This document shows, piece by piece, positions 60,326-64,000 of a stretch of DNA of 64,000 nucleotides (the first letter of the stretch is position 1; every line of letters starts with the position of its first letter). The position numbers were made by a program, and so were the translations under genes. The notes beneath the pieces are model-generated. The model had not been told where the DNA came from, did no database searches, and was given only the letters and a program-made list of their open reading frames with translations. The stretch lies in assembly GCA_003554105.1 (NCBI GenBank), contig PWFQ01000073.1, positions 41,834-105,833 on the forward strand, read 5' to 3'. This DNA comes from Clostridiaceae bacterium. GTDB taxonomy: Bacteria; Bacillota; Clostridia; Peptostreptococcales; T1SED10-28.

Positions 60326-60398
60326 TTGTAACATCCATATAAAGGATGTATAATGATTATAGGGTATTTTTTTACTAATGAGTGCAATCGCTTGCACT
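60326..60398 (+). promoter_or_regulatory. Binding-protein promoter with downstream LacI-type operator
   Basis: TTGTAA (60326-60331)-N17-TATAAT (60349-60354). The spacer holds an inverted repeat ACATCC-ATATAAA-GGATGT. The palindrome AGTGCAATCGCTTGCACT (60381-60398; 7-bp arms) lies about 20 bp after the predicted transcription start, where a repressor would block elongation. Confidence 0.78.
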
Positions 60399-60434
60399 CT
60401 GAAAAATGAGAATGATTTAAAGGGAGGATGTAAA

Positions 60435-61787
60435 ATGAAAAAGTTATTCGGTTTACTGTTAATTCTATTACTGGCCTTTGCACTTGTGGCCTGCGGAGGA
60501 AATGGTGAAGATCCCGTGGACGACAACGGTGACAACGGTGAAGTGGTGAACGGCGACGATGTTGATGAAATTGAAGGAATTGAAGCAACAATTACGGTAC
60601 AGGTTGAAGAAGGTTGGCTCTCCTACTATGAAGCAGCGAGAGACCGTGTCCTTGAAAATAATCCCGATTCGACCATCGAGTTTATTGTAACACCATCTTT
60701 TGACCATCTTGACGTTCTTGACAGTACAGACCCGACCAATGAGGACGTGGCAGACTTATTTGCAATTCCTGCTGACCGGGTTTATGGATTGAACACAAAT
60801 GATGTGCTTGCACCTCTTGATGCTCTTGAACTGGCAGCACTAGTCGGAGGATTCGATGACTATGACGGAGGCCTGGGTGGAAACTTTAACATTGACGGAG
60901 AGTATATGGCCTTCCCAATGAACATCGAGACTTTGATCAACTTTGGAAACACTGCCAATGCAGAAGCGGCAGGAATCGACTTTGACGATGTATTGGAATT
61001 TACAGAAATGGGATTTGAAGACATGCTTGTTCCTGTTTGGAATGCATGGTTTGGCGTTGCCTTAACAAACTCAGCGGAAATTGAACTGCTTGGACATGAC
61101 GATGAGGGAATGCTATATTCTGACTTAACTCAGGACTTTGCTGATCTTGAGCCTGCAAAGCAGGAAGTTTTCGAAGCACTGTTTAATTACTGGCAAGCTC
61201 ATCACGAAGCGGGAACTGACCTTTGGGACAATGAAGCTGCTTGGGGATATATGGATTCTGAATTTGGTACCGGAGGAGACACAGCTCTCCGAATTGAAGG
61301 ACCTTGGTCTACGGGAAATCTTTCCGGTCAAGCTGGAGACGGTGAAGATCTTGCAATCCTTCCGATTAGTCAGGTAACTCTTAATGGAAATCCATTGGCT
61401 CACTGGCAAGGCGGTTGGGGTCTTGTATTAAACTCCCGAATTGAAGTGGATCAGGATAAAATGGATCTCGGTCATGCAATGATCGCTGAAATTCAAAATA
61501 CTGATTATGCAGTAGACTTCTTTACAGCCAGCGGAAAGATTATGGAGAACGTTGATGCATCATTATATTTGGATTCCGATCTTTCAGATACCGACAAACT
61601 GGTTATTGAATCAGTGATCGAATCTTACAACCAAGCTATTCCACGACCACTTTTCACCGAGTGGGGCCAGGTTTGGGGAACTTGGGAAAATGCAATGCTT
61701 TCCTGGTCTGCAGTGAATCCATCAAATGTTGAAGAAGCCTACAACGAAGTTAAGGCTGCATTTGATGCAATGATGTTAAACTTCTAA
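60435..61787 (+). CDS. Maltose/maltodextrin ABC transporter binding lipoprotein (MalE-like)
   Basis: A 450-aa extracellular lipoprotein: signal peptide MKKLFGLLLILLLAFALVACGG with lipobox LVAC, then a very acidic linker rich in Asp, Asn and Gly (residues about 22-55), then a periplasmic-binding-protein fold of the sugar type. Placement after glgP and before a MalF-like permease indicates maltodextrin. The start is ATG 60435 (GGGAGGATGTAAA); the ORF-track start is 57 nt too early and overlaps the operator. The strong acidity suggests exposure to high salt or pH (inference). Confidence 0.9.
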   Translation: MKKLFGLLLILLLAFALVACGGNGEDPVDDNGDNGEVVNGDDVDEIEGIEATITVQVEEGWLSYYEAARDRVLENNPDSTIEFIVTPSFDHLDVLDSTDPTNEDVADLFAIPADRVYGLNTNDVLAPLDALELAALVGGFDDYDGGLGGNFNIDGEYMAFPMNIETLINFGNTANAEAAGIDFDDVLEFTEMGFEDMLVPVWNAWFGVALTNSAEIELLGHDDEGMLYSDLTQDFADLEPAKQEVFEALFNYWQAHHEAGTDLWDNEAAWGYMDSEFGTGGDTALRIEGPWSTGNLSGQAGDGEDLAILPISQVTLNGNPLAHWQGGWGLVLNSRIEVDQDKMDLGHAMIAEIQNTDYAVDFFTASGKIMENVDASLYLDSDLSDTDKLVIESVIESYNQAIPRPLFTEWGQVWGTWENAMLSWSAVNPSNVEEAYNEVKAAFDAMMLNF

Positions 61788-61897: not shown

Positions 61898-62341
61898 ATG
61901 CTTGTATCAAGATCCATTCCCAAAAATAAATTGTATATGATCATCGGATTCTCATCGGTGGTTATTGTGGCCCTCTCTCTCGATGTACTGTACCGCGTGA
62001 AGAGCTATCAGGAATTTGTTCATTGGTGGGAAAGGATAGAAGCGATGGAAGGCATCGGATTTTCTGAAGATGAAGCTTTTAGCACGTACTTGACATCAAA
62101 TATGAGTCTTTACTTTACCAATGCAATTATACCAATGATTTTCACGATTCATACGTACTTTACCAAGAAAAAGCGGAGCTTGAACGGCTTGTTTGTTTTT
62201 TTGTGGGCAGTGCTTCTGGCAGGAGGATTCGGGTTTACCCTGGTGGAGTGGAATACCGGTTCCCTGTTTTATTACTTGAGACTGGGCGGATATATAGGAC
62301 TTTTTATTACAACCTTGACGTTATCAACAGATTCTGAATAA
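61898..62341 (+). CDS. Small membrane protein in the maltodextrin transport operon
   Basis: A 147-aa protein with about four membrane segments (MIIGFSSVVIVALSLDVLY; YFTNAIIPMIFTIHTYF; LFVFLWAVLLAGGFGFTLV; YLRLGGYIGLFITTLTL). I do not recognise the family. It lies between the binding-protein gene and the MalF-like permease, with AGAAGTGAGCTGA upstream, so a role in assembly or regulation of the transporter is possible. Confidence 0.75.
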   Translation: MLVSRSIPKNKLYMIIGFSSVVIVALSLDVLYRVKSYQEFVHWWERIEAMEGIGFSEDEAFSTYLTSNMSLYFTNAIIPMIFTIHTYFTKKKRSLNGLFVFLWAVLLAGGFGFTLVEWNTGSLFYYLRLGGYIGLFITTLTLSTDSE

Positions 62342-62390
62342 CTGTTCAAAAATCCATATCACGGAAAATACGGTAAAAGGGGGGAGTCCC

Positions 62391-64000
62391 TTGGCAACGA
62401 TTGGAATTAAGCTGTACGATGAGATTGGAAGAACCTATGATCGAAAAAACACATATTTAAAGGAACTGGCAATATTAGTGAATCAATACCATAATGCATC
62501 GAAGGAAGAAAAACAGAAGCTTAAGGAAGAGATTGCACTTCACAAAAAACGAAAACAGGAGCACCCTTATTATAAAATGTATAATGAGTTCAAGTCGAAG
62601 GAGAAGATTTTTAAAAAAGAGTTGAAAAAAGAAGTGCAAAATTTTCGGGGGAAACTGGATGATGATTCTTCTTCAGAGGTGAAATCTTTAAAAACAAAGG
62701 ATTTCAAAGCGAAAAAAACCATGGATTTTTATGAGCATTATAGTGAATTGACCTATGAAGCGGATTTTAAATATCATGAAGCTGAAATGGAGCGGAAGCA
62801 CTATCCTGAGCTGATGGGAATTATTCAGGAAAAAGAGCGTCAGCTCCGGGAAGCAATGACGACCAAAAAACAAGAGGCCAAACAAACTGATCAGAAAAAA
62901 GAAAACCAGAATTTCCAACAATTCAAAAATGATAAAAAAGAGGAACTGAAAAGTAATATTGCTGAACTTAAAAGGAAAAGAAAAGAGAAAATTATCTCTG
63001 AAAAGGCTAAGAAGACAGGGATTGCAGAACTGAAGAAGCGTTATAAAAATGCCCTTCAACTTCGGAAACTGAAAAACCCTGTAGTTGGAAACAATGAAGA
63101 AATCAAGGCGTTAAAGTATGATCTTAAAATTATACCGAAGCGGATGAAAAGAACGCTGAGCGCAGATCTGGCTGACATTCGAAGGAAAACCCCTGTCGAA
63201 GTGGAGAAAATTCATCCGGTTTTCGCATTCACCACCTTTCTTTTGCCCGGTCTCGGCCAGCTGCTCAATAAACAATTTGTGAAAGCGGTTTTGTTTTTTA
63301 TCGCTTCTTTATTCATTTATTTAGTGGCAGTTCCTTATTCATTGGGATACGGCAACTATCAAGGAGAAGGCATTGCAGGCCTTATCAATCTAGCAGAGGG
63401 AGCTCCCCGGATTTTCCGATCGTTAATTTTTATGATTGAAGGAATTATCGCAATTCTTCTCTCATTAATTGCCATTGGTCTTTTCTATATTTCTTTCAGA
63501 GACGTGTACGGAGTGGAAAAGAAAGAAGCAAAAGGAGTTAGAAGCAAGAACTGGTATGAAACCGTCACCAATATTTCTCAAGACGGGTTTCCCTATGTGG
63601 TATCCATGCCCGCATTCTTTATTGTCATCTTTATTGTTCTTGTGCCAGTGATTACAACATTTTTGCTATCTTTTACAAACATGAATCCCCAAAACCAGTC
63701 GAAGTTCAACTGGGTTGGGCTCAGTAACTATCAGCGTCTTGCCTTGGGAGAAGGCTTGACTGGATCTGTCTTCTGGTATATTTTAGGGTGGACTGTGATA
63801 TGGACCCTGGCAGCCACAACGTTGGCAATCTTCATCGGGTTTTTCCTTGCAATTATTGCCAACAATGAGCGGATTATCGGGAAAAAGTTCTTCCGAACAG
63901 TCTATTTACTCCCCTGGGCGGTACCTGCCTTTATCACGATCCTCTTTTTCAGTATTATGTTCTCGCCCAATGGGGCTTTGACGGATATTCTGACAGGGAT
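62391..64000 (+). CDS. MalF-like sugar ABC permease with long charged N-terminal extension (partial)
   Basis: An open frame from TTG 62391 (AAGGGGGGAG upstream) continues beyond the window, at least 536 codons, and is not in the ORF track. Residues 1-270 are highly charged and helical, rich in Lys, Glu and Gln (for example KEEKQKLKEEI, KERQLREAMTTKKQEAK), with coiled-coil character. Membrane helices start at about 275 (VFAFTTFLLPGLGQLL), and a MalF/UgpA-type core follows (VSMPAFFIVIFIVLVPVITTFLLSFT, WVGLSNYQRL, FFRTVYLLPWAVPAFIT). Ordinary MalF proteins have no such cytoplasmic extension. The partner MalG is expected just downstream. Confidence 0.88.
   Translation, partial: MATIGIKLYDEIGRTYDRKNTYLKELAILVNQYHNASKEEKQKLKEEIALHKKRKQEHPYYKMYNEFKSKEKIFKKELKKEVQNFRGKLDDDSSSEVKSLKTKDFKAKKTMDFYEHYSELTYEADFKYHEAEMERKHYPELMGIIQEKERQLREAMTTKKQEAKQTDQKKENQNFQQFKNDKKEELKSNIAELKRKRKEKIISEKAKKTGIAELKKRYKNALQLRKLKNPVVGNNEEIKALKYDLKIIPKRMKRTLSADLADIRRKTPVEVEKIHPVFAFTTFLLPGLGQLLNKQFVKAVLFFIASLFIYLVAVPYSLGYGNYQGEGIAGLINLAEGAPRIFRSLIFMIEGIIAILLSLIAIGLFYISFRDVYGVEKKEAKGVRSKNWYETVTNISQDGFPYVVSMPAFFIVIFIVLVPVITTFLLSFTNMNPQNQSKFNWVGLSNYQRLALGEGLTGSVFWYILGWTVIWTLAATTLAIFIGFFLAIIANNERIIGKKFFRTVYLLPWAVPAFITILFFSIMFSPNGALTDILTG

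Follow-up and report, generated by a model that had tools for sequence, protein, structure and literature searches.

Among the ABC sugar importers, which are textbook examples of transport machinery, the best studied is the one that includes MalF. The locus analysed here raises the question of what a MalF-like permease might do with an additional segment of more than 270 residues ahead of its first membrane helix, and whether such a segment is made at all. The window, i.e. the whole stretch of 64,000 nucleotides that was analysed, comes from a Clostridiaceae bacterium (contig PWFQ01000073.1, positions 41,834 to 105,833). The permease frame lies on the plus strand, begins at a TTG at position 62391 and stays open as far as the end of the window, where the contig stops too; 536 of about 690 residues are present in this copy.

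The permease gene and its operon

The features of the locus are collected in Table 1. Judged by its sequence, the permease is a MalF-type (CUT1) subunit of a binding-protein-dependent ABC importer. Behind the extension, the membrane part opens with a PGLGQLLNKQ hairpin and leads into the first portion of the permease core. Hydropathy allows six helices ahead of the EAA loop, in keeping with an N-in topology. The window copy ends inside the BPD_transp_1 domain (PF00528), which was found in the full-length orthologues L032 and L046 with E-values of 7e-15 and 2.7e-17, respectively. The EAAxIDGA coupling loop is near-invariant in the orthologue alignment and, for the window's genome, lies outside the window. 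The proteins score below the curated cut-off of 392 bits for the enteric MalF equivalog NF008232 in NCBIfam, the truncated window protein reaching 49.8 bits and full-length orthologues 180 and 204 bits. The first membrane hairpin (PGLGQLLNKQFVKAVLFF, window 63225–63360) has sub-threshold similarity to DUF6677 and DUF5683, a similarity shared by shorter MalF relatives.

Table 1 Features of the locus, with the basis of each assignment
Feature	Coordinates	Strand	Basis
4-alpha-glucanotransferase-like ORF, 493 aa	56413..57894	+	Sequence reading; orthologues in several related operons
Glycogen/maltodextrin phosphorylase-like ORF, 786 aa	57896..60256	+	Sequence reading; orthologues in several related operons
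MalE-like extracellular solute-binding lipoprotein (start more likely at 60435)	60378..61787	+	Pfam SBP_bac_8, 2.2e-06
Small integral membrane protein of 147 aa with four helices predicted	61898..62341	+	Directly upstream of the permease
Shine-Dalgarno-like AAAAGGGGGGAG	62375..62386	+	Precedes the TTG start; orthologues align at site and start
N-terminal extension of the MalF-like permease, 274 aa	62391..63212	+	AlphaFold2; 40 aligned orthologues; dN/dS
N-terminal motif L-Y-D-x-I-G-x-x-Y-x-R-K-N-x-Y-L-x-E-L-A, aa 8–27	62412..62471	+	Orthologue alignments
I-S-x-K-A motif, aa 202–206, between two predicted helices	62994..63008	+	Alignment, AlphaFold2
Invariant P-x-E, aa 268–270, at the junction of extension and membrane part	63192..63200	+	Orthologue alignments
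MalF-like membrane core, cut by the contig end	63213..63998	+	MalF matches in PDB and NCBIfam; BPD_transp_1 in orthologues

The operon of binding protein, MalG and MalK is present when the window, related loci and a further contig of the same genome (L114, G000:C69) are considered. The latter contig opens with an 86-aa frame that is 84% identical to the Acetoanaerobium core and is likely the 3' end of the window's malF, followed by malG (299 aa), malK (361 aa), a LacI-type regulator and three further ORFs. These last three were read as glgB (glycogen branching enzyme), glgC and glgD, suggesting from their sequences that maltodextrin uptake may be linked to glycogen turnover.

A sequence-only reading of the window had proposed that a charged stretch reads from the TTG directly into a MalF core, behind a strong ribosome site. 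The frame was confirmed, and both the start and the Shine-Dalgarno site are aligned across orthologues: position 1 alone has a conserved start with a Shine-Dalgarno sequence of at least five matching bases, seen in 27 of the 29 orthologue rows, a count that is partly circular as the starts were picked by the author from the alignment. An internal start just before the first membrane helix was likewise sought across the orthologues, and the 29-row alignment held no in-frame start that was common to them and had a strong site. A TTG start was seen in 14 of the 30 orthologues counted (entries named: window 62391, L003–L009, L035, L036, L039, L040 and L052), mostly behind a similar AAAGGTGGG site, and its recurrence possibly reflects a tuned low translation rate.

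Sequence, fold and origin of the extension

The extension is shared by more than 40 orthologues from Clostridia, Treponema and Streptobacillus, so that its presence in related Clostridia, which the sequence-only reading had left to be checked, is well documented. These orthologues came from related genomes and GTDB contigs, and their complete copies measure about 670–700 aa, that of Clostridium sp. Cult1 excepted. In close pairs its dN/dS is 0.06–0.18, indicating that it is under purifying selection. Because of this conservation and these ratios it is more than a chance open frame, and the evolutionary evidence supports the conclusion that it is translated. The idea that the extension is not made, either because translation begins just before the first helix or because the frame is a chance fusion, can draw on TTG being a weak start codon, but with the low dN/dS, the conserved length, motifs, start and Shine-Dalgarno site, and the lack of a shared internal start, we regard it as highly improbable.

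Pairwise identity among the orthologues averages 35% for the extension and 66% for the core. In an alignment of 40 sequences, R18, K19, F113, I202, K205, A206, P268 and E270 are invariant, and N20 of the N-terminal motif is conserved in more than 90%. The LKxKRKEGLISxKA stretch may resemble SHOCT-type helix pairs. The segment of about 270 residues is indeed charged, as had been noted, but this applies to the segment as a whole and not to each of its residues: 118 of the 274 (43%) are K, R, E or D, giving a net charge of +24. No hydrophobic segment occurs before the first membrane helix, found near residues 291–321. Because of the net charge, the lack of a membrane segment and the position of the EAA loop, the extension is predicted to be cytoplasmic, on the side where MalK binds. 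Taken together with the core matches, the orthologues and the predicted topology, this bears out the view of a MalF-type permease carrying a large cytoplasmic extension.

An AlphaFold2 model of the extension alone, built with 40 sequences, reached a mean pLDDT of 95.6 and a pTM of 0.82 and comprises eight helices together with a beta hairpin, a short one, at the N-terminus; the same elements of the extension recur in the model of the 536-aa window protein. The extension is thus confidently predicted to be a folded helical domain. A near-significant amphipathic period was found in two of the eight helices and is weak in the other six, so the earlier description as "probably coiled coil" is weakly supported, and coiled coil was set aside as the main description.

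Database searches gave the domain no relative. The window extension is without a Pfam match (scattered weak matches were seen in one or two of 28 members) and without an acceptable NCBIfam match, and a profile search of PDB sequences returned zero matches at E-values up to 1. Fold searches of PDB and BFVD gave nothing significant, the best PDB match having an E-value of 0.21 and a TM-score of 0.24, and neither PDB sequences nor the folds in PDB and BFVD linked the extension to EIIA or another regulatory domain. The nearest folds, themselves weak matches, are those of elongated helical dimers, F-BAR domains among them; given the scores, a BAR/F-BAR reading was set aside. For the small membrane protein, Pfam gave no match and NCBIfam one below threshold. 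Literature searches, limited mostly to papers outside the subscription journals, did not yield an account of the extension. As far as these libraries and papers reach, both the extension and the small membrane protein appear undescribed.

The extension was found in 24 of 297 genomes of the window's order, in five of 399 genomes across the phylum (the window's own included), and in four of 145 genomes of the Treponema putidum family, where one copy is disrupted. In this last case (G756:C1:2518092–2518852; L093, L094) the extension is split, its N-terminal part has four stop codons, and the gene may be decaying. Complete frames matching the extension profile are about 670–725 aa long, the shorter ones being disrupted or located at contig ends. 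All complete frames therefore have the length of the permease, and the domain is always fused to it. Among 300 phylum genomes, cores with an identity to the query of 67% or more belong to frames of 705–711 aa, plus the window's truncated copy, whereas cores at most 44% identical belong mostly to frames of 420–490 aa from genomes that do not match the extension profile. In the phylogenetic tree all 44 extended proteins group on the same side of one branch, which is supported at 100/99. Because of this branch and the clean split in core identity and length, the domain was probably gained once in this MalF subfamily, an origin supported by sequence comparison. The copies in Treponema and Streptobacillus suggest transfer between phyla.

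A linked membrane gene and possible roles

The small membrane protein encoded directly upstream of the permease, which the sequence-only reading had overlooked as a companion of the extension, probably has an N-in/C-in topology. Its profile finds the gene in 22 of the 297 genomes of the order, all of them within the 24 with the extension and always adjacent to it. The remaining extension genomes are G028, which has a divergent 122-aa ORF at the corresponding position, and G145. Outside the order, the pair occurs in Fastidiosipila, Clostridiaceae, Neofamilia, Streptobacillus and Vallitalea records and one further clostridial record. No real match to the small gene was found in nine genomes with a related unextended MalF, and a match was found in four with the extension. 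This linkage is well supported, and the small gene is likely a partner of the extension. One operon inherited as a block could give such co-occurrence without contact between the products; with the core controlled for, the distances of extension and small protein show a partial correlation of 0.37, which points weakly beyond block inheritance and may reflect rate effects. The pair is not obligatory, since a Treponema putidum genome keeps the extension and the small gene was not found there.

We give about an even chance to the reading that the extension and the small membrane protein form a two-part accessory module of MalFGK2 that stabilises or gates the importer. In the most likely mode of action, the small protein would sit beside MalF in the membrane and the cytoplasmic domain would dock on MalF/MalG/MalK; once docked, the domain would stabilise or gate the transporter, with gating possibly answering a cytoplasmic cue. 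A case that counts against the accessory module is Clostridium sp. Cult1 (L043:4938–5588), in which extension residues ~4–59, including the RKN motif, are lost in frame. Its permease is 641 aa long, about 56 residues just after the start being absent, and the small membrane gene is kept; the loss may be real or may stem from an error in the assembly.

A more specific proposal, which we hold only tentatively, is that the extension and the four-helix protein constitute a new regulatory subassembly that would sense a cytoplasmic metabolite or the glycogen state and gate MalFGK2 accordingly, in organisms whose glycogen turnover is supplied by imported maltodextrin.

The sequence-only reading had offered three roles for the extension, of which regulation of the ATPase and organisation of transporters in the membrane are possible. 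In one version of ATPase regulation, the extension alone would regulate or select the cognate MalK, and the small protein would have a separate role, for example as a chaperone of the binding protein or permease. Such an arrangement accords with the Treponema putidum genome and with the dedicated malK directly after malG in nearly all loci covering that region as well as in the window's own genome, but in almost all other cases tested the small gene lies next to the extension and is tied to it, and we consider this arrangement rather unlikely.

Another of the three roles was to tether the maltodextrin phosphorylase or 4-alpha-glucanotransferase, by which incoming sugar would be handed on. In the window, as in several relatives, both enzyme genes are neighbours of the importer genes; in many loci with the extension and small gene, however, neither enzyme gene lies within 5 kb. 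Two paralogous Vallitalea operons (L040:2875–4488 and L099:1718–11801) both have the extension and the small gene. One has a GH43-like gene between the binding protein and the small gene, and its paralogue has glucanotransferase and phosphorylase ORFs. As the neighbouring enzymes vary while the extension and small gene are kept, tethering is disfavoured and appears improbable.

Equally improbable, in our view, is the organisation of transporters by the extension as a self-associating scaffold that would cluster them in the membrane. The long helices and the elongated dimers among the weak fold neighbours would suit it, but those fold matches fall short of significance and the heptad periodicity is weak.

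Comparison with known sugar transporters

The MalF of Escherichia coli resembles the window permease in its EAA-loop core, a predicted cytoplasmic N-terminus and an extra membrane hairpin before the core, and its operon likewise includes binding protein, MalG and MalK. It differs in having no counterpart of the 270-aa cytoplasmic domain and in carrying a periplasmic loop of ~180 aa (PMC2246101); the window permease has no such large loop between helices 3 and 4, and only a short stretch separates the predicted helices 401–428 and 455–490. A conserved domain with a confidently predicted fold and no catalogued relative, together with a co-inherited membrane protein, points to some level of assembly or control that is missing from the E. 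coli model, and gives a lead on function for two uncharacterised families at once.

The closest outside core is that of the shorter Bacillota MalF relatives (MdxF/GanP-like, mostly 420–490 aa; 42–44% identity). These share the PGxGQxxNKQ hairpin but lack the extension, and in the two loci read no small membrane gene lies between the binding protein and permease genes.

Cytoplasmic switches of sugar transporters are known from the control of MalK by EIIAGlc and from LacS with its fused EIIA-like domain (PMC10710835), from which the window extension differs in having neither a sequence nor a fold match to EIIA. Small membrane subunits that modulate transporters are exemplified by AcrZ with AcrB and by LucB with a mycobacterial lipid ABC transporter (PMC10710835). 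No relation was found between these and the small protein, which at ~150 aa with four predicted helices is linked to a domain added to the permease. The large hydrophilic insertion in the MalG of Thermotogales (PMC2246101) concerns the other subunit than the extended MalF and serves as precedent only, as a lineage-specific region added to a maltose permease subunit.
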